Origin: Halomonadaceae bacterium T82-2 | Lineage (GTDB): Bacteria > Pseudomonadota > Gammaproteobacteria > Pseudomonadales > Halomonadaceae | Direction of reading: 5' to 3' | DNA: 64,000 bases | Assembly (NCBI GenBank): GCA_001577635.1 | Contig: LSBP01000001.1 | Span: 62,001 to 126,000 of the forward strand | In this document: positions 23,682 through 54,247 of the stretch, one piece after another | Numbering within the stretch: position 1 is the stretch's first letter | Layout: each line of letters starts with the position of its first letter | Translations under genes and position numbers: made by a program | Notes under the pieces: generated by a model | Databases searched by the model: none | What the model was told of the DNA's origin: nothing | What the model saw: only the letters and a program-made list of their open reading frames with translations

Positions 23682-23941
23682 GGGATGTCTCCTGATGAAT
23701 CGGGTTAGGCCTCCATGTACCCCATGGATCCGACCGCGGCACGCATCGGCGTCGACCTCGGCACCCGGGACCATGTGACGGTACATGTGTGTTTTCAGGC
23801 AGTTGATGGACTTGCCGCTTGCCGCCGCCCGCCGGCGGGCGGATTGCAGTCAAGCGCGCGGCTTTATACCATAGAATGATGCCAGAATGAAGCCGATGCC
23901 CCGCGCCGCGCGGGCTTCCCACGCTCCCGATTCGAGACCCC

Positions 23942-36271: not shown

Positions 36272-39025
<2,754 letters not shown>

Positions 39026-39070
39026 AGCCGTGCCGGGGAAGCGCCCCGGGCATCACTCGGCGCAAACGGA

Positions 39071-39100
39071 AACGCCCTGCCAGCGAGGCAGGGCGTTTTC
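39071..39100 (+). terminator. Rho-independent terminator of acnA
   Basis: 11-bp stem AACGCCCTGCC-AGCGA-GGCAGGGCGTT followed by TTC. Confidence 0.75.
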
Positions 39101-39133
39101 ACGTCATGGCATAGTCGGCCGAGACAAGGCTAT

Positions 39134-39247
39134 GCGAGGGCGCTGTAGACCCTTCCCTGGGCGCTACTTTTGCCATCTGACCGCCATGGATGGCGGAAAT
39201 GCCGAAATGGAAGGGATCATTTTTCGGCCATGGCAAAAGACCCTCGC
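39134..39247. repeat. Multi-branched palindromic intergenic element
   Basis: Nested perfect arms: GCGAGGG 39134-39140/CCCTCGC 39241-39247; TTTTGCCAT 39168-39176/ATGGCAAAA 39230-39238; inside, hairpins CCGCCAT-GG-ATGGCGG (39181-39196) and GCCGAAA...TTTCGGC (39201-39228); direct repeat GGGCGCT at 39138 and 39159. Confidence 0.6.
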
Positions 39248-39274
39248 GTCGACTTGTCACTGCCTGCCATGACC

Positions 39275-39291
39275 CGCTTTTTAGAAAAGCG
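39275..39291 (-). terminator. Hairpin immediately downstream of malic enzyme
   Basis: CGCTTTT-TAG-AAAAGCG directly after the malic enzyme stop codon. Confidence 0.45.
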
Positions 39292-39292
39292 C

Positions 39293-40972
39293 TTAGAACG
39301 CGCGACGCCGATAACGCCGATAACGCGGATACCAGAAGTTGTGCTCGATCGCCTCCCACAGCACTTCATCGCTGGAGGACAGCGCCACGCCTTCCTCCTG
39401 GGCCTGCTTGGCGACATCGAAAGCGATCGACTTGCTGATCTCGCGGATATCCTTGAGTGACGGCAGCAGCGCGCCCTCGCCCTTCCTGACGATCGGCGCG
39501 CCGTTGGCCAGGGCGTTGGAAGCCGCCATCAGCATGCCGTCGGTGACCCGCGAGGCGTTGGACGCGACCACGCCGAGCCCCACGCCGGGGAAGATGTAGG
39601 CGTTGTTGCACTGGGCGATGGCGATCTCGCGCTCGCCGACCTTGACCGCCGGGAAGGGGCTGCCGGTCGCGACCAGCGCCTGGCCGTCGGTCCAGTCGGC
39701 GATTTCCTGGGGCGTCGCCTCGACCCGCGAGGTGGGGTTGGACAGCGGCATCACCACCGGGTTGGGGCAGTTCTCGTGCAACGTGCGGATCACCTCTTCG
39801 GTGAACAGGCCGCGTTGACCGGATACCCCGATCAGGATGGTCGGCCTGGCCGAGGCGATCACGTCGAGCAGCGAGCGACCCGGCCAGTCGGCCAGCTCCG
39901 CGGGGTCATGGGCCAGGCGCTGCTGGAAGTCGCGCAGGCCGTCCATGTCGCTGGTCAGCAGGCCGTGGCGATCCACCATGTAGACCCGCCGGCGTGCCTC
40001 GTCCTCGCTCAGCCCCTCGGCCTGCATGGCGACGATGATCTGCTCGGCGATGCCGCAGCCGGCGGAACCGGCGCCGACGAAGGCCACCCGCTGGTCGCCG
40101 AGCCGGGCATCGCGCGACTTGCAGGCCGCCAGCAGGGTGCCCACGCAGACCGCGGCAGTGCCCTGGATGTCGTCGTTGAAGCAGCACAGCTCGTCGCGGT
40201 AGCGTTCGAGCAGCGGCATGGCGTTGGTCTGGGCGAAGTCCTCGAACTGCACCAGGGCGTTGGGCCAGCGACGCTTGACCGCCTGCATGAACATGTCGAT
40301 GAACTCGGCGTACTCCTCGTCGCCGATGCGCTTGTGGCGCCAGCCCATGTACATCGGATCATCGAGCAGCTGCTGGTTGTTGGTGCCCACGTCGAGCATG
40401 ATCGGCAGCGTGTAGGCCGGGCTGATGCCGCCACAGGCGGTATACAGCGAGAGCTTGCCGATGGGAATGCCCATGCCGCCGATGCCCTGGTCGCCGAGCC
40501 CCAGGATCCGCTCGCCGTCGGTGACCACGATCACCTTGACCCGGTCCTTGGTGGCGCTGCGCAGGATATCGTCCATGTGCTCCCGGTCGGGATAGGAGAC
40601 GAAGATCCCGCGGTGGTTGCGATAGATATTGGAGAACTCCTCGCACGCCTCGCCCACCGTCGGCGTGTAGATGATCGGCATCATCTCCTCGAGATGCTCT
40701 TCCAGCAGGCGGAAGAACAGCGTCTCGTTGTCGTCCTGGATCGAGCGCAGGTAGATGTGCTTGTCCAGATCGGTCTTGCACAGGCGGTACTGACGGTAGG
40801 CGCGCTCCGCCTGCTCCTCGATGGTCTCGACATTCTGGGGCAGCAGCCCGATAAGATTGAAGTCGATGCGCTCCTTCAGGGTGAAGGCGCTGCCCTTGTT
40901 CAGCAGCGGCATCTCCAGCAGCGACGGACCGGCATAGGGGGTATAGAGGGGGCGCTTGGCGTTCTCGCTCAT
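39293..40972 (-). CDS. maeA: NAD-dependent malic enzyme
   Basis: [59 protein letters not shown]...; malic enzyme N and NAD-binding domains. Confidence 0.95.
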
Positions 40973-45416: not shown

Positions 45417-46607
45417 CTAGTCGCGGAACACGCGCACGCCCAGCGCCTTGAGGTAGGCCGTCTCGGGAATCGACGGGTGCACCGGGTGGTCCGGTCCCTG
45501 TCCGCCCTGATAGAGGATCTGACCGTGCCGGTCCTGGTGACGCACCGCACCGCGCACGCACTCCACCAGCCGCTCGGTAGCCAGATGCATCGAGCAGGAG
45601 GCGGAGAGCAGCAGGCCGTCGCGTCCCAGCAGGCGCATCGCCTCGCGGTTGAGACGCGCGTAGGCGCGCTCGCCGTTGGCGATGTCCTTGCGCCGCTTGA
45701 TGAACGCCGGCGGATCGAGAATCACCACGTCGAAATGCTCACCGTCGGCCTTGAGCGCGGCCAGGGCCTCGAAGGCATCGGCCTCGCCTACCGCCACCCG
45801 GTCGTCCACCCCGTTGAGCGTGGCGTTTTCGGCCACACGCTCCAGCGCCTCGGCGGAACGGTCCACGCACAGTACCTCGCTGGCGCCGTGCGCCGCCGCC
45901 TGCACACCCCAGCCACCGATGTAGCTGAACAGGTCCAGCACCCGCTTGCCCTCCACCAAGGCGTTGAGCCAGGCCCGGTTGGGGCGATGATCGTAGAACC
46001 AGCCGGTCTTCTGGCCGTCGAGCACCGGCGCGACGAAGCGCACACCGTTCTCCTCGAGCAGTACCTGCTCGGGCAGTTCGCCGTGGACCACCGCCACCTC
46101 GCTCTCGAGCTGCTCCTGGCGGCGCCCGGAGGTATCGTTCTTGAACACGATCGCCCGCGGCGAGAGCACCTTGTCCAGCGCCGCGATCACTTCCTCGGCC
46201 AGCCGCTCCATGCCCAGAGTATTGAGCTGGACCACCAGCACGTCCCCGAAGCGATCGACCACCAGCCCCGGCAGCAAATCGCCCTCGCCGTGCACCAGGC
46301 GATAGAACGGCTTGTCGAACAGCCGCTCGCGCAGCGCCAGCGCCTGGTTGAAGCGGTGCACCAGCAGCGAGCGATCCAGCCTCACGTTGACATCGCGGGA
46401 TACCACGCGGGCGCAGATCAGCGAGTGCGGATTGACATAGGCGATGCCCATCGGCTTGCCGTTGGCGGCCTCGATGATCGCCTGGCTACCCGGCTCCACC
46501 GTCTTGAGCGGCGTGGCCTGGATGTCGATCTCGTTGGAATAGAGCCAGAGATGACCGGCCTTGAGGCGGCGATCGGCGTTCTTCTTCAGGCGCAGGCGTT
46601 CGGTCAC
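45417..46607 (-). CDS. rlmI: Class I SAM-dependent 23S rRNA methyltransferase (RlmI-like); GTG start
   Basis: PUA-like N-terminus RLRLKKNADRRLKAGHLWLYSNEID, VLDLFSYIGGWGVQAAAHGA, DPPAF motif. Confidence 0.88.
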   Translation of the reverse strand: MTERLRLKKNADRRLKAGHLWLYSNEIDIQATPLKTVEPGSQAIIEAANGKPMGIAYVNPHSLICARVVSRDVNVRLDRSLLVHRFNQALALRERLFDKPFYRLVHGEGDLLPGLVVDRFGDVLVVQLNTLGMERLAEEVIAALDKVLSPRAIVFKNDTSGRRQEQLESEVAVVHGELPEQVLLEENGVRFVAPVLDGQKTGWFYDHRPNRAWLNALVEGKRVLDLFSYIGGWGVQAAAHGASEVLCVDRSAEALERVAENATLNGVDDRVAVGEADAFEALAALKADGEHFDVVILDPPAFIKRRKDIANGERAYARLNREAMRLLGRDGLLLSASCSMHLATERLVECVRGAVRHQDRHGQILYQGGQGPDHPVHPSIPETAYLKALGVRVFRD

Positions 46608-46707
46608 GGTAACTCCGGTTCAGATCATCGGGAATTGGCGGCATTTTAACGCGCTTGCAGGCCCCCGAGAAAAGTCCACGGGTCTTCATGCGCGGAGAAA
46701 CGCTGAA

Positions 46708-46809
46708 CAAATCGCCGAGCAGTGTAAAGCGCAAGGCGCACGGAGCACAGAAACCGGAGCCTATGAGTTATAGGTGAGGATTTCGAGCACCGCGCAACGC
46801 AGCGATTTG
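46708..46809. repeat. Structured intergenic element, copy A
   Basis: Outer arms CAAATCGC (46708-46715)/GCGATTTG (46802-46809); core GCAAGGC-N17-CGGAG-[CCTAT GAGTT ATAGG]-TGAG-GATTTCGAG-N8-AACGCAGC (46731-46803), homologous to copy B at 52669-52742. Confidence 0.7.
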
Positions 46810-46834
46810 CCTGCGCAGGCATTTGCGTTGTTAC

Positions 46835-47650
46835 TCAACTCTGGCAGCGCGGACAGAACACGCTGGCCCGCTGCCCCAGGGTGACGTTGCGCAGTTCACC
46901 GCCACAGCGGCGGCAGGGTTCGCCGGCGCGCCCGTAGACATTGAGGCGCTGGGCGAAGTAGCCGGGCTCGCCCACGCCGCTGACGAAGTCACGCAGCGTG
47001 GTGCCGCCCTGGGTGATGGCCGCGGCGAGCACCTCGCGGACGGCCTCGGCCAGTCGCGCGTAGCGCTCCCCCGCGATACGCCCGGCCGGTCGGCGCGGAT
47101 CGATGCCGGCCAGAAACAGTGCCTCGGCGGCATAGATATTGCCCACGCCCACCACCACGGCGTTGTCCATCAGAAACGGCTTGACCGCCAGGCGCCGGCC
47201 GCGGGACAGCCGATACAGACGTTCGCCGTCGAAGTCCGGCGACAGCGGTTCCGGCCCCAGCCTGGCCAGGCGCGGGTCATCGCTCACCCCGCCGCGCAAC
47301 CAGTCGACGAAGCCGAAGCGGCGCGGGTCGTGATAGCGCAGGATGACCCCGTCATCGACCACCAGGTCGACATGGTCGTGCTTCTTCGGCAGCTCGCCCA
47401 GCCGGGCGATGCGCAGGCTGCCCGACATGCCCAGATGCCACAGCAGGGTGCGCGTGCCCACGGGGATCGTCAGATACTTGGCGCGGCGACCCGGCTCGCC
47501 GATTTGGCGGCCGACGAGTGCGTCCTCGAGATCCACCGGCACCGGGGTGCGCAGACGGCGCTCGCGCACGATCACCTCGCGGATCTCGCGGCCTTGCAGG
47601 TACGGCGCGATGCCGCGGCGGGTAGTCTCGACTTCGGGCAACTCGGGCAT
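46835..47650 (-). CDS. mutM: Formamidopyrimidine-DNA glycosylase
   Basis: [23 protein letters not shown]...C-terminal zinc finger [25 protein letters not shown]. Confidence 0.97.
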
Positions 47651-47706
47651 GGAGAGACTCCGTCACGAACCGAGGAGAGGGCAAGTCATATAGCGAGCAG
47701 AGACGA

Positions 47707-47731
47707 AAAGACCCGGCAAGGCCGGGTCTTT
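47707..47731 (-). terminator. Terminator downstream of rpmG
   Basis: AAAGACCCGGC-AAG-GCCGGGTCTTT; minus strand continues as TTTTCGTCT. Confidence 0.75.
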
Positions 47732-47821
47732 CTCGGCAGGCGCAACACGCCTGCGGCGGAAGCACAGCTTCACGTGCCGGATCGCGCCACCGCAAAAGGC
47801 GCCGCGTTCGACGGCAACGCG

Positions 47822-47977
47822 TTACTTGATCTTGGCTTCCTTGTACATCACGTGCTTGCGGACCACCGGATCGTACTTCTTGAATTCGAGCTTGTCCGGG
47901 GTGTTCCGCTTGTTCTTGTCGGTGGTGTAGAAGTGGCCGGTACCGGCGCTGGACACCAACTTGATCTTGTCACGCAT
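47822..47977 (-). CDS. rpmG: 50S ribosomal protein L33
   Basis: [51 protein letters not shown]; below ORF-track size cutoff. Confidence 0.97.
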
Positions 47978-47992
47978 GAGTCTCGTCTCCCC

Positions 47993-48229
47993 TTAGATGC
48001 GCTCGCCGCGCTTGCGAATATCGGTCAGCACCGCCTCGATGCCCTTCTTGTCGATGATGCGCATGCCCTTGGAGGAAACACGCAGCTTGACGAAGCGCTT
48101 CTCGGCTTCCACCCAGAAACGGTGGGTGTGCAGGTTCGGCACGAAACGACGACGCGTCTTGCGCTGGGAGTGGGATACGTTGTTACCAGTCACCGGACGC
48201 TTGCCGGTAACCTGACATACTTTGGACAT
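47993..48229 (-). CDS. rpmB: 50S ribosomal protein L28
   Basis: [40 protein letters not shown]. Confidence 0.98.
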
Positions 48230-48422
48230 GAGAGCCTCCAACCGCTGGGCGAGTTGTTCAAAACCTGTCGGGCAAACCGGGAAGAGAGAATGGCAGGTAA
48301 CCGCCTTCCGCCCCTTAATTAACCCAAGGAAGTCAAAGGGCGTACTTTATACCAGAGACCCCGTCTTCCGGCAACCGGAAATGGCGACGAAAACGTCTGC
48401 CGGCTTCCCCTCGACGCCGACG

Positions 48423-49097
48423 CTACAGCCAGCCGCGCTCGGCGAACGACACCACCTCGCCGTCGCCGATCACGAAATGATCGAGTACGCGGATCTCGAA
48501 CAGCGCCAGCGCCTCCTGCAGCCGGGTGGTGATGCGCCGGTCGGCGTCGCTGGGCTCGGCCACCCCCGAGGGATGATTGTGGGCGAAGATCAGGGCGCCG
48601 GCCCCCAGCGCCAAGGCCCGTTTGGCGACTTCGCGCGGATAGACCGAGGCACTGTCCAGCGTGCCGCGGGACAGCGACTCGAAACGGATCACCCGATGCT
48701 GAGTATCCAGAAACAGGGCGGCGAACTCCTCGTGCCCGAGATGACGCAACTGCGACGCCAGGTAGCTGCGCACCAGCGACGGCGAGGTTAGCGCCCCGCC
48801 ACGCTCGAGCTGACTGGCCAGGTGCCGGCGGGACAGTTCGAGTACCGCCTGGAGCTGCACGTACTTGGCCTCGCCCAGGCCGTGCTCGGCGCAGAAACGC
48901 TGGCGATCGGCTTCCAGCAGCGGCCGCAGGCCACCGAAGGCGCCGAGCAGATCCCGCGCCAGATCCACCGCCGAACGCCCCTTCACCCCCACCCGCAGGA
49001 AGATGGCCAGCAGTTCGGCATCGCTGAGCGCATCCGCCCCCAGGCTCAGCAGCTTCTCGCGAGGGCGCTCGCCCTCCGGCCAGTCACGAATCCCCAT
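48423..49097 (-). CDS. radC: RadC family JAB-domain protein
   Basis: [48 protein letters not shown]...[14 protein letters not shown]. Confidence 0.95.
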
Positions 49098-49313
49098 CGG
49101 CTCCCTCCACTCCAGCTCCGGGTGTGTTCACGGCATCCTCACGCAGAATATCAGCAATGATGCATAAATAAATACACACCTCACCCAGGTGGCGTTGTCG
49201 GCGCTTCCGGCACGACAGGCCTGCTCCCGGGCAAGCGGCCTCTATACTGAGGCCGCCCACGGCCATCGCCTGGCATGGGATACGCGGCGACCAGCGCGAC
49301 AAGGAGTCAGGAG

Positions 49314-50759
49314 ATGGCACTTCACAGGGTGGGCAGCCAGTATGCAGACGCCCGGTCGGGTATCGTCCACCTCGGCCTGGGTGCCTTCCACCGCGCCCAC
49401 CAGGCGGTCTACGTCGAGCGCAACCTGGCGCGCCACGGCGGCGGGGACTGGGGCATCATCAGCGCCAACATCCGTTCCAACCGCCGGCTCGTCGAACTGA
49501 TGCGCCAGCGCGACCGGCGCTACCACGTCGCCGAATACGCCGACCGCGCGCATGTCACGCTGCGCGAGATCGGCGCGATCCGCGAGACGCTCTACGCCGG
49601 TCCCGACGGCGCCGACCTCGAGGCCCTGCTGGCCCGCATGAGCGAACCGGGCGTGCGCATCGTCACCCTGACCGTCACCGAGAAGGGCTACCATCTGAGT
49701 CCCGCCGACGGCCGTCTGCTCGTCGACGCCCCGCCGATCGCCCACGACATCGCCGAGCCCGCCATACCGCACAGCGCCCCGGGGATGCTCGTCGAGGCGC
49801 TGGCCCGCCGCCGTGCCGCCGGCACGCCGGCCTTCACGGTACTCAGCTGCGACAACATACCGGACAACGGCAGGCGCGTTCGCCGCGCGGTGATCGAGCT
49901 GGCGCGCCATCGCGACGAAGGCCTCGCCGAGTGGATCGCCGAGCACGTCGCCTTTCCCTGCAGCATGGTCGACCGCATCGTACCGGCGATGACCGACGAC
50001 GACGTCGCGCGCCTCGCGGCGCTGGGCGCAGACGACCCGGCGGCGGTGGTCTGCGAGGCCTTCAGCCAATGGGTGATCGAGGACGACTTCCCGCAGGGCC
50101 GTCCCGACTGGGAGCATGACGGCGTGCAGATGGTCGCCGACGTCGCGCCCTTCGAAGCCATGAAGCTGCGCCTGCTCAACGGCAGTCACTCGCTGCTCGC
50201 CTACCTGGGGGCGCTGGCGGGTATCGAGACCGTCAGCGAGGCCGTGGGTCGTCACCAGTTCGTCGGGCTGCTGCACCGCTACATGGGTGAGGAAGCCGCG
50301 CCGACGCTGACCCTGCCGGCGGGCACCGACCTCGATGCCTACGCGGCGAACCTGCTCGCGCGCTTCGCCAACGACAGCCTTCATCACCGCCTGCAGCAGA
50401 TCGCCATGGACGGCTCGCAGAAGCTGCACCAGCGCTGGCTCGCCGGTGCCCGGGCAAGGATCGACGCCGGCGGCGACGTCGCCTGCACGGCGCTCGGCGT
50501 GGCGGCCTGGATTCGCTACACCGCCGGCAACAACCTGGCGGGCGAGAGCCACCCGGTGAACGACCCCATGGCCGAGACCTTCGCCGCCCTGCACGAGGCA
50601 CACCAGGAACCGGCCGCATTGGTCGCGGCCTTTCTCGCCCTCGATGCCATCGTCCCGCGCGAGCTGGCCGGGAATACCCGCTTCTCCGGGGCGGTGCTCG
50701 ATGCCTACCGCGCACTGAACGAGAGCGGCGTGGAGGCCGCGATCCGCCGGCTGGGCTGA
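49314..50759 (+). CDS. Mannitol dehydrogenase family protein (polyol/uronate long-chain dehydrogenase)
   Basis: IVHLGLGAFHRAHQAVYVERNLARHG...; TVTEKGYHL; KLRLLNGSHSLLAYLG. Confidence 0.92.
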   Translation: MALHRVGSQYADARSGIVHLGLGAFHRAHQAVYVERNLARHGGGDWGIISANIRSNRRLVELMRQRDRRYHVAEYADRAHVTLREIGAIRETLYAGPDGADLEALLARMSEPGVRIVTLTVTEKGYHLSPADGRLLVDAPPIAHDIAEPAIPHSAPGMLVEALARRRAAGTPAFTVLSCDNIPDNGRRVRRAVIELARHRDEGLAEWIAEHVAFPCSMVDRIVPAMTDDDVARLAALGADDPAAVVCEAFSQWVIEDDFPQGRPDWEHDGVQMVADVAPFEAMKLRLLNGSHSLLAYLGALAGIETVSEAVGRHQFVGLLHRYMGEEAAPTLTLPAGTDLDAYAANLLARFANDSLHHRLQQIAMDGSQKLHQRWLAGARARIDAGGDVACTALGVAAWIRYTAGNNLAGESHPVNDPMAETFAALHEAHQEPAALVAAFLALDAIVPRELAGNTRFSGAVLDAYRALNESGVEAAIRRLG

Positions 50760-50827
50760 CGCCGACATTACGCACCGCGCCCCGCGAAATGGTAAAGTTG
50801 CCCTTTCATTCTCGAAGGTGAACCGTC

Positions 50828-52150
50828 ATGTCGGGTTTCGGGCCGCCCCTGGCCGGAAAGCGTATCCTGCTGGGCATCAGCGGCGGCATCGCCGCCTACA
50901 AGAGCGCCGTGCTCGCGCGCCTGCTCAAGAAGGCGGGCGCCGAGGTGCGCGTGGTGATGACCGAGGGCGCCCAGGCCTTCATCGCGCCGCTGACCCTCCA
51001 GGCGCTGACCGGCGAGGCGGTGCGCACCTCGCTGCTCGACCCCGAGGCGGAAGCCGGGATGGGCCACATCGAGCTGGCCCGCTGGGCGGAGCTGGTGCTG
51101 ATCGCACCCGCCACGGCCGACCTGATGGCGCGCCTGGCCCACGGCCACGCCGACGACCTGCTCACCACCCTGTGCCTGGCCACCGGCGCCGACTGCGTGA
51201 TGGCCCCGGCGATGAATCAGGCGATGTGGGCACACCCGGCGACCCGCGACAACGCCCGTCGCCTCGCGGGCTACGGCTGGCGCCTGCTGGGCCCCGACAG
51301 CGGCGACCAGGCCTGCGGTGACGTCGGCGCCGGGCGCATGCTCGAGCCCGAGACGATCGTCGAGCGGCTCCTTTCGACGCCCGACGACGTGCCTGACGTG
51401 TCGCCCGATGCCGTACCCACCGATCCGGCAGCCGGCGATACCGACGCGGCCGACCTGACCATCACCCTCACCGCCGGCCCGACCCGCGAGGCGCTCGACC
51501 CGGTGCGTTACCTCTCGAACCACAGTTCCGGCAAGATGGGCTATGCGCTGGCCGCCGCGGCGGCCGCCCGCGGCGCCCGGGTGCGCCTGATCAGTGGCCC
51601 GGTGGCCCTGGGAACGCCCGCCGGGGTCGAGCGCGTCGACGTCACCTCGGCCGAGGAGATGCTCGAGGCCACCCGCGAGGCCGTCGCCGACAGCGATGTC
51701 TTCATCGGCTGCGCGGCGGTTGCCGACTACCGTGCCGCCCGCCCCGCCGAGCACAAGATCAAGAAGACCGACGGCCAGGACACCCTGACCCTGGAACTGG
51801 TCAAGAACCCCGACATCATCGCCACGATCGCCGCCGAGACCCCACGCCCCTTCGTGGTCGGTTTCGCCGCCGAGACCCGCGACCTCGAGGCCTATGCCCG
51901 TGACAAGCTCGCCCGCAAGAACCTCGACATGATCGTCGCCAACGACGTCTCGCGCGCCGGACTGGGCTTCGGTTCGGACCGCAACGCCGCGCTGATGCTG
52001 TGGCGCGGGGCTCAGGGCAGCGAGGGGCGTCGCGAGCTGCCGGCCCAGTCCAAGGCCGCGCTGGCCGAGGCCGTGATCGACCAGGTCATCGCACGCTTTC
52101 GCGAGCGTGCTTCCACGAATGCTTCCGCGTCCCGACAGGACTCCCCATGA
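50828..52150 (+). CDS. coaBC: Bifunctional phosphopantothenoylcysteine decarboxylase/phosphopantothenate-cysteine ligase
   Basis: [43 protein letters not shown]...[28 protein letters not shown]. Confidence 0.97.
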
Positions 52151-52635
52151 ACGACACCGTTTCCCCGCCCCCGCAAGCCACCCGCCCGCAACTGGCCGTG
52201 AAGGTACTCGACGAGCGCGTCCACGCCTACCCGCTGCCGCACTACGCCACCACCGGCAGCGCCGGCATGGACCTGCGCGCCCTGCTCGACGCGCCTCTCG
52301 AGCTCGCGCCGGGCGACTGCGAACTGGTGCGCACCGGCCTGGCCGTGCACATTGCCGATCCCGGGCTCGCCGGCATGATCCTGCCGCGCTCGGGGCTGGG
52401 CCACAAGCACGGCATCGTGCTGGGCAACCTGGTGGGGCTGATCGATTCCGACTACCAGGGCGAGCTGATGGTCTCGGTCTGGAACCGTGGCCGCGAGCCC
52501 TTCGTGCTCGAGCCCGGCGAGCGCCTGGCCCAGTTCGTGCTGGTGCCGGTCGTGCAGGCCGACGTCACGGTGGTCGACGACTTCGCCGCCAGCCAGCGCG
52601 GCGAGGGGGGCTTCGGCCACTCCGGCCGACACTAG
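52147..52635 (+). CDS. dut: dUTP diphosphatase
   Basis: [13 protein letters not shown]...[28 protein letters not shown]; overlaps coaBC by 4 nt. Confidence 0.97.
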
Positions 52636-52778
52636 GGTTTGTCCGAAAAGTCGGCGAGCGACGACCAGGCAAGGCAAAAATCAGCGAAAAAGCGGAGTTT
52701 ACGGGGTGTAAATGAGCATTTTGAGATGATTTTTAACGCAGCATGGTCGAGCGCAGCCAGTTTTCAGACAAAGCCTAG
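52632..52778. repeat. Structured intergenic element, copy B, bounded by 18-bp imperfect terminal inverted repeats
   Basis: CTAGGGTTTGTCCGAAAA (52632-52649) vs reverse complement of TTTTCAGACAAAGCCTAG (52761-52778): 16/18 identical; internal stems CGACCA/TGGTCG, AAAAATCA/TGATTTTT and TTTAC/GTAAA; core homologous to copy A. The left arm overlaps the dut stop codon. Confidence 0.75.
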
Positions 52779-52864
52779 GCAGACCGGGCCGCCGAGGGCG
52801 GCCCACCACCGGCGGACGACCATCCGCCTCGTTCGTTTTGCATCCCATGACCAAGGAGGGACCC

Positions 52865-54247
52865 ATGAGCGATATCACCCCATCCATCTTCCGTGCCTAC
52901 GACATCCGCGGCACCGTCGATGACACCCTGACCGAGGCCAATGTCGAGCTGATCGGCCGGGCCATCGGCAGCGAGGCCGCCGAGCGCGGCGAGCAGACCG
53001 TCATCGTCGCCCGCGACGGCCGCCATTCGGGGCCGCGCCTGCAGGCCGCACTGATCAAGGGACTGACCGCCGCCGGCCGCGACGTCATCGACATCGGCAT
53101 GGTGCCCACGCCAGTGCTCTACTTCGCCACGCACACCCTCGAGGGCAGCGCTTCCGGCGTGATGGTCACCGGCAGTCACAACCCGCCCGAGTACAACGGT
53201 TTCAAGATCGTGCTGGGTGGCGAGACGCTCTCCGGCGACGCCATCACCGCGTTGTACCAGCGCATCGTCGACGACAACCTGACCCACGGCGAGGGCAGCG
53301 TTCGCGAGCACGACGTGCGTGACGCCTATCTCGATCGTATCCTCGGCGACGTCAAGCTGGCCGGCCCGATCAAGGCGGTGGTCGATTGCGGCAACGGCGT
53401 GGCCGGCGAGCTGGGGCCCCAGCTGGTCGCGCGCCTCGGCGCCGAGACCGTGACCCTGTTCGACGAGATCGACGGCGACTTCCCCAACCACCACCCGGAC
53501 CCGGGCAAGCTCGAGAACCTCGAGGACGTGATCCGCACCGTCAAGGAGACCAACGCCGACATCGGCCTGGCCTTCGACGGCGACGGCGACCGCCTCGGCG
53601 TGGTCACCCCCAAGGGGGAGGTGATCTATCCCGACCGGCTGATGATGGCCTTCGCCGAGGACATGCTCACCCGCAATCCGGGCGCCAAGGTGATCTTCGA
53701 CGTCAAGTGCACCGGCAACCTCGCCAAGGTGATCGACGAGGCCGGGGGCGAGCCGGAGATGTGGCGCACCGGCCACTCGCTGATCAAGGCGCGCATGAAG
53801 GAAACCGGCGCGCAGCTCGCCGGTGAGATGAGCGGGCATATCTTCTTCAAGGAGCGCTGGTACGGCTTCGATGACGGCCTCTACGGCGCCGCGCGACTGC
53901 TGGAAATTCTCTCCAAGCAGTCCGGCGACGCCGATGCCTTCTTCGCGCACTTCCCGCAGGATCTCGGCACCCCGGAACTCAACGTCAAGGTCACCGACGA
54001 CAACAAGTTCGCGATCGTCGACAAGCTGGCGCGCGAGGGCGACTTCGGCAACGACGGCGTCAAGACCACCCTCGACGGCATCCGCGTCGACTACCCGGAC
54101 GGCTGGGGTCTGTGCCGCGCCTCCAATACCACGCCGGTGCTGGTGCTGCGCTTCGAAGGCAAGAGCCAGGAAGCGCTCGAGCGCATCCAGGGGTGCTTCC
54201 GCGACGCCCTCAAGCAGGTCGCCCCGGACGCCGAACTGCCGTTCTGA
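52865..54247 (+). CDS. algC: Phosphomannomutase/phosphoglucomutase
   Basis: SIFRAYDIRGTVDDTLTEANVELIGRAIG...VMVTGSHNPPEYNGFKI; AlgC-type, in the coaBC-dut-algC-argB order. Confidence 0.94.
   Translation: MSDITPSIFRAYDIRGTVDDTLTEANVELIGRAIGSEAAERGEQTVIVARDGRHSGPRLQAALIKGLTAAGRDVIDIGMVPTPVLYFATHTLEGSASGVMVTGSHNPPEYNGFKIVLGGETLSGDAITALYQRIVDDNLTHGEGSVREHDVRDAYLDRILGDVKLAGPIKAVVDCGNGVAGELGPQLVARLGAETVTLFDEIDGDFPNHHPDPGKLENLEDVIRTVKETNADIGLAFDGDGDRLGVVTPKGEVIYPDRLMMAFAEDMLTRNPGAKVIFDVKCTGNLAKVIDEAGGEPEMWRTGHSLIKARMKETGAQLAGEMSGHIFFKERWYGFDDGLYGAARLLEILSKQSGDADAFFAHFPQDLGTPELNVKVTDDNKFAIVDKLAREGDFGNDGVKTTLDGIRVDYPDGWGLCRASNTTPVLVLRFEGKSQEALERIQGCFRDALKQVAPDAELPF

Follow-up and report, generated by a model that had tools for sequence, protein, structure and literature searches.

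In a 64-kb stretch of Halomonadaceae DNA (hereafter the window), the convergent genes for aconitate hydratase (acnA) and malic enzyme are separated by a cluster of nested palindromic arms, and the question that this locus raises is what such an element is and why its pairing is kept. The initial annotation, made from the sequence alone, had described four complementary arm pairs within 114 bp, a three-way junction and a 7-bp direct repeat, and had taken the whole, which it judged dispensable for termination, to be an interspersed palindromic repeat or a structured RNA.

Architecture of the element between acnA and the malic enzyme gene

The element in the window consists of two nested three-way junctions, in which an outer stem (P1) encloses a hairpin (P2) and a second stem (P3) that itself opens into two hairpins. 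Two of these hairpins carry CANGGANG, the published RsmA/RsmE/CsrA site (PMC6849547). The features of the locus are as follows.

36272-39025, + strand: acnA (aconitate hydratase), convergent gene upstream of the element
39070-39098, + strand: acnA terminator-like hairpin with a 12-bp perfect stem, outside the element and also present in relatives with an empty site
39113-39270, + strand: inserted element, 158 bp, delimited by comparison with the empty site of a relative (G011)
39119-39264, + strand: family core matched by the covariance model (80.3 bits, E 5e-17)
39134-39140, + strand: P1 5' arm GCGAGGG, pairs with 39241-39247
39139-39167, + strand: P2, imperfect hairpin GGCGCTGTAGACCCTTCCCTGGGCGCTAC, near-invariant across the family
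39152-39159, - strand: CANGGANG motif, read CAGGGAAG, in the P2 loop (CCC-AGGGAA-GGG hexaloop)
39167-39176, + strand: P3 5' arm CTTTTGCCAT, pairs with 39230-39239 (10 bp)
39177-39229, + strand: P3 expansion in place of the short tip ("long1" form, 71-nt P3), common to nearly 30 fetched copies
39181-39196, + strand: tip hairpin CCGCCATGGATGGCGG (CCGCCAT-GG-ATGGCGG), with the CANGGANG motif CATGGATG at 39185-39192 (+)
39201-39228, + strand: third hairpin, GCCGAAA (39201-39207) with TTTCGGC (39222-39228)
39230-39239, + strand: P3 3' arm ATGGCAAAAG, pairs with 39167-39176
39241-39247, + strand: P1 3' arm CCCTCGC, pairs with 39134-39140
39275-39291: CGCTTTT/AAAAGCG hairpin on the malic enzyme side
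39293-40972, - strand: malic enzyme gene (oxaloacetate-decarboxylating malate dehydrogenase), 3' end at 39293, 5' end approximate

All four arm pairs were found where the initial annotation had placed them, but the inner pair is one base pair longer than it had said. The direct repeat GGGCGCT also held (copies at 39138 and 39159), and it bounds the imperfect hairpin P2, which had been overlooked; the three-way junction held as well and, once P2 is counted, extends to the nested pair described above. Folding of both strands, which had been proposed as a check, gave better structures than dinucleotide shuffles in either case: the minus-strand RNA had a z score of -3.8 (0 of 200 shuffles as good) and the plus-strand RNA one of -2.5 (4 of 200). 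The corresponding value for a DNA fold was -3.75.

A role as a terminator was rejected because no U tract follows the element and both flanking genes have hairpins of their own, as had been claimed. In two relatives (L086 and L090) the intergenic regions between acnA and the malic enzyme gene contain tandem arrays of GCTTCGG and of GCCTGAATAGGTTCG. Elsewhere in the window, a t44 RNA (RF00127) was detected at 23704-23809 on the minus strand (69.9 bits). A separate repeat that the initial annotation had mentioned at 46.7 and 52.7 kb was not recovered, either as ungapped repeats of at least 25 bp (seed 12) within 46400-53200 or by blastn between the two places.

Apart from the motif in the tip hairpin, no CANGGANG motif in the entire window sits on a stem of at least 5 bp. 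Unlike the short copies of the family described below, the window copy carries about one motif on each strand. Because it lies beyond the terminators of both convergent genes it may be little transcribed, and it is possible that it is silent or nearly so, with little effect of its own. Its main interest is less in itself than in the repeat family to which it belongs.

A dispersed family of mobile repeats

A 162-bp query recovered from the 3.42-Mb genome of this halophilic bacterium, besides itself, ten long and some 25 partial copies, and a short-form consensus query raised the total to about 45 places. The interspersed-repeat side of the initial reading is thus supported; the annotation would have been refuted by a single-copy element not conserved in any relative, and this is not the case, since the element is multicopy and has matches in other genomes. 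Matches were present in 29 of 58 sampled genomes, on many contigs of Halomonas, Billgrantia, Vreelandella, Onishia, Salinicola and Chromohalobacter, and among 369 Gammaproteobacteria genomes they were confined to Halomonadaceae and one other family (genome G493). No phage match to the Halomonadaceae repeat was found, and plasmid carriage was limited to one Halomonas megaplasmid. Rfam contained no family that reached its gathering score for the element; sub-threshold matches (sX6, Ysr224, miRNAs) were taken as chance. We found no earlier description in the open-access literature searched (covering Halomonas repeats, the letters of the motif, and CsrA together with MITE or REP), the subscription literature being outside our scope, and a survey of GTAG/CGTC repeats does not mention Halomonas or Chromohalobacter (PMC3733652).

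Copies are ~105-245 bp long and have no transposase gene inside. In most of them P3 is a plain 20-nt hairpin (119 of 184 in a first tally), and the remaining forms keep P1 and P2 unchanged but have a longer P3 of about 71 nt (as in the window copy), 101 nt or 128 nt. We considered whether the CTGA...GAAA strands of the expanded P3 might be hammerhead-like and dropped the idea, by inspection, because the core letters do not fit CUGANGA. There are at least two types of outer end, CAGGGCTATCGCAGTTAG (subfamily B) and TTAAGAGCTCATTTCCAAACC (subfamily A), the latter being unrelated to the former and placed around the same core (L021-L025, L161). The window copy has neither and retains inner arms only; it is a family member with shortened arms and an expanded P3.

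The plan recurs outside the Halomonadaceae. In genome G493 a repeat built on the same three-way plan occurs in at least 40 copies; its 25-bp outer stem is unrelated in sequence, its P3 tip is CATGGATG and its P2 reads CCCANGGACGGGTTTACGGCG. This parallel family was seen on contigs L311 and L313-L324. Four IMG/VR contigs (L325, L327, L328, L329) show the plan again, with A+T-rich stems (CGAAAACATGGATGTTTTCG) in L325 and L329. A covariance model built from Halomonadaceae copies only finds the G493 and viral copies mostly at E 1e-8 to 4e-14 and the weaker ones at 5e-6 to 5e-4; none of the 12 ISAs1 control loci gave a match. The loop letters are kept even in L322 and in the second L327 copy, which deviate from the P2 search pattern. 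A further contig, L326, matched the P2 pattern and was rejected as chance, having no such structure and no model match.

That these repeats have moved is shown by empty sites. In relative G011 the same intergenic region measures 109 bp rather than 267 bp and reads TTTTCACGTCATGGCAT^GACCCGC at the junction, and the window element is an insertion because exactly 158 bp (39113-39270) are lacking there. Other relatives have intergenic regions of their own at this locus, without the element, and a further apparent empty site was seen on comparing L211 with L214. The 3-bp CAT at 39110-39112 and 39268-39270 is a possible duplication, so that the window copy has at most a 3-bp target site duplication (TSD).

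Full-length subfamily B copies are ~165 bp long and have CAGGGCTATCGCAGTTAG at both ends as terminal inverted repeats (TIRs). Direct repeats of at least 8 bp lie exactly at these ends in 16 of 181 copies, as compared with 1.9 in flank shuffles (maximum 6), and those of at least 10 bp in 7 as compared with 0.16 expected; no excess was found at other offsets from the ends. Exact examples of such TSDs are:

GGGCGCGAGC, L037
CTCGCTGCCG, L030
CAGCCGTGGG, L044
GCCTGGCGCG, L121

TSDs of about 10 bp together with CAGGG ends pointed to ISAs1, transposases of which occur in 34 of 201 genomes of the family. One such insertion sequence (IS), L264 in genome G166, is 1197 bp long, matches NF033564, has a 10-bp TSD and ends in CAGGGCTATCGCAGTTGAGC and CAGGGCTATCGCAGTTAGAT, with terminal CAGGGCTATCGCAGTT(G/A). 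Its 17-bp ends are identical to those of subfamily B, and copies of the repeat are present in its host genome too. The ends of other ISAs1 copies within the family are CAGGGAAAACGCATGA or CAGGGCAATCGCACGT. Derivatives of ~80 bp that lack the core keep ISAs1-type ends and TSD-like flanks (L246, G000 C54:14649-14727; L231, C53:32409-32489).

The family thus has the marks of miniature inverted-repeat elements (MITEs), namely dispersed copies without transposase and empty sites, with TIRs and TSDs in subfamily B, which in addition shares its ends and TSD length with an autonomous IS. It is therefore well supported that the family consists of MITEs and that, in subfamily B, these are non-autonomous partners of insertion sequences of the ISAs1 family. 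The window copy itself is not an ISAs1 MITE, ISAs1-type outer ends being absent from it. Because its genome lacks an ISAs1 transposase, the subfamily B copies there are now probably immobile. No clear TSD was found for subfamily A, nor an autonomous partner, as a pattern search of 38 genomes returned no pair of TTAAGAGCTCATTTCCAAACC ends about 1 kb apart. Neither the identity of the family, its link to ISAs1 nor the CsrA-type loops had been part of the initial annotation.

Stem pairing, hairpin tips and orientation

The pairing of the stems is maintained. In a non-redundant set of 55 short cores, changes on both sides were seen at 22 of the 30 pairs, and compensated cells numbered 252 as compared with 82 in shuffles. 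The paired fraction was 94% as compared with 34-46% in slid registers, and when all column pairs were compared, covariation was strongest in those of P3 and P1. Compensation at the RNA level normally passes through G.U, and G.U occupied only 1 in ~715 cells of the P1 and P3 stems. Because it is nearly absent, the covariation may stem from replication template switching or DNA-level pairing, and correction of palindromes by template switching remains a possible cause. One set of orthologous copies (L213 compared with L134/L158) fits an in-place compensatory change; this was not used as evidence because many other pairs in the same intergenic regions looked like separate insertions.

The tips of P2 and P3 are fixed. 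On the strand opposite to P2-forward, both read CANGGANG, P2 as CCC-ANGGAN-GGG and P3 as GCC-ANGGAN-GGC. In 97 copies the letters of the P3 tip were C97 A97 N G97 G96 A97 N G97, and the fixed letters of P2 were likewise kept in 96-97 of 97; the first N varies freely in P2 and P3 alike, and the second does so in P2 but is mostly T in P3. A P2 pattern had served to fetch most of the GTDB copies, which makes the conservation of P2 among them partly a matter of construction. P3 was absent from every search pattern. Both motifs were also fixed in 20 copies from the own genome, which were fetched by whole-element similarity. A distance of 22 nt separates the two motifs in every one of the 95 cores. 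The C-G pair that closes the loop has a mean probability of 0.97 in P3 and 0.80 in P2, and the P3 stem around the motif comprises 19 different 5' hexamers. The loops of CsrA/RsmA-binding RNAs are ANGGAX hexaloops directly on a stem (PMC4005645), and both tips, on C-G-closed stems, meet this form.

The motifs and the copies are also oriented. Short copies have 1.93 motifs on the sense strand and 0.02 on the other, and the 101-nt form has 2.0 and 0.06, respectively. By location, 126 copies lie in tandem, 25 in convergent and 10 in divergent intergenic regions, and for 88 of the 126 tandem copies the strand that bears the motif is also the one transcribed (88:38, p 1e-5). This bias is carried by copies other than subfamily B (78:29), subfamily B itself being unbiased (10:9). 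Genes were called with a simple codon model that had been trained on this window, and each copy was treated as independent, so the p-values are optimistic. The structured-RNA side of the initial reading is thus supported to the extent that pairing is maintained by covariation and that the tips bear a protein-binding consensus on the strand biased towards transcription.

A proposed mobile CsrA/RsmA docking site and its rivals

On balance, and with moderate confidence, we favor the view that this MITE family spreads a dual docking site for CsrA/RsmA, an inference drawn from the exact consensus in two hairpins, their spacing, the strand bias and the recurrence of the module. In this view, the cargo is a three-way junction in which P2 and P3 would each present an ANGGAN hexaloop on the strand usually transcribed with the neighboring genes, at a spacing of 22 nt. 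Within an mRNA, a single CsrA/RsmA dimer would dock on both loops; one CsrA dimer bridges sites 10-63 nt apart, with an optimum above 18 nt (PMC7652899). In cis, docking may tune the stability or translation of the flanking cistrons, and in trans, dozens of transcribed copies may titrate CsrA/RsmA as a dispersed decoy. Binding and regulatory effect are inferred, there being no binding or expression data, and csrA was not searched for in this genome; a csrA gene 89% identical to that of E. coli at the protein level was present in a Halomonas sp. PR-M31 locus fetched by chance. Weighing against docking are the near-zero G.U, the lack of orientation bias in subfamily B and the single motif per strand in the window copy, as well as the length of the P3 stem, since high-affinity SELEX ligands have stems mostly of 4 bp or less (PMC7652899).

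The most serious rival, which remains possible, is a plain DNA MITE or palindromic repeat with no RNA role, whose arms are kept by template switching or cruciform-linked repair and whose tips are fixed because the DNA hairpin matters or the family is young. It is favored by the scarcity of G.U in P1 and P3, the clear TSDs and ISAs1 ends, the DNA fold, the unbiased subfamily B and the core-less derivatives that keep TIRs and a TSD. However, it leaves unexplained why two separate hairpins have the same tip and vary only at the consensus N positions, a pattern common to Halomonadaceae, G493 and viral contigs whose stems are unrelated, and it accounts neither for the fixed 22-nt spacing nor for the overall 88:38 orientation bias. 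We regard as unlikely a transcribed, ERIC-like element that works without CsrA, by influencing mRNA decay or the stability of 3' ends, either through RNase III/E or by forming a 3' barrier. The preference for tandem and convergent over divergent sites, the strong hairpins and the precedents of ERIC and Correia elements (PMC10969869) speak for it, but decay roles need stems rather than a fixed 6-nt loop consensus, and here it is the stems that vary and the loops that are constant.

Mobilization as a REP/REPIN-type element by a RAYT (Y1 tyrosine transposase) is very unlikely. On the sense strand P2 is immediately preceded on its 5' side by GTAG, an arrangement that resembles GTAG-tagged REPs (PMC3733652), and the genome has one Y1_Tnp gene, but the ~10-bp TSDs and ISAs1 ends indicate a DDE transposase, no copy of the element flanks the RAYT gene, and GTAG is not kept in the G493 or viral relatives. 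The single RAYT-like gene (G000 C49:180-506, L071) is surrounded by GCGACTTCAGTCGC palindromes unrelated to the element.

Returning to CsrA/RsmA docking, a bolder form of the proposal, which in our judgment is as apt to be wrong as right, is that transposition both recruits new operons to the Csr/Rsm regulon and accumulates a dispersed decoy for CsrA, with the module recurring with unrelated stems across several gammaproteobacterial lineages; binding is inferred here too. Csr/Rsm regulons differ between species, and how mRNAs acquire CsrA sites is largely unexplained. If the proposal is true, a MITE with a complete two-loop site would be a direct route for regulon rewiring, transcripts of dozens of copies would impose a decoy load on free CsrA, and the upkeep of pairing and loops in some bacterial palindromic repeats would have a biological explanation.

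Compared with known systems, the element resembles GTAG-tagged REPs/REPINs in being a short intergenic palindrome with, in Halomonadaceae copies, GTAG beside a hairpin, but differs from them in its DDE-type TSD and TIR, its longer branched structure and the lack of a link to the RAYT of the genome. With ERIC/RU-1 of Enterobacteria it shares the form of an imperfect palindrome of ~130 bp, tens to hundreds of copies and an intergenic location, which for the element is inferred to be mostly transcribed; although no direct sequence comparison was made, it has another host family, a branched core rather than a single stem, fixed CANGGANG tips and, in subfamily B, a 10-bp TSD. The ANGGAN hexaloops, C-G-closed stems and dimer-bridgeable spacing are those of the CsrB/CsrC/RsmX/Y/Z sRNAs and of CsrA/RsmA sites in mRNAs, whereas the element, for which binding is only inferred, exists as dispersed, mobile intergenic copies with two sites each and no identified promoter or terminator of its own. 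Finally, subfamily B resembles ISAs1 insertion sequences and their MITEs in its terminal CAGGGCTATCGCAGTT, 10-bp TSD and 17-bp ends identical to those of L264, but at 165 bp and without an ORF it has only the TIRs in common with the IS, to which its three-way junction is unrelated.
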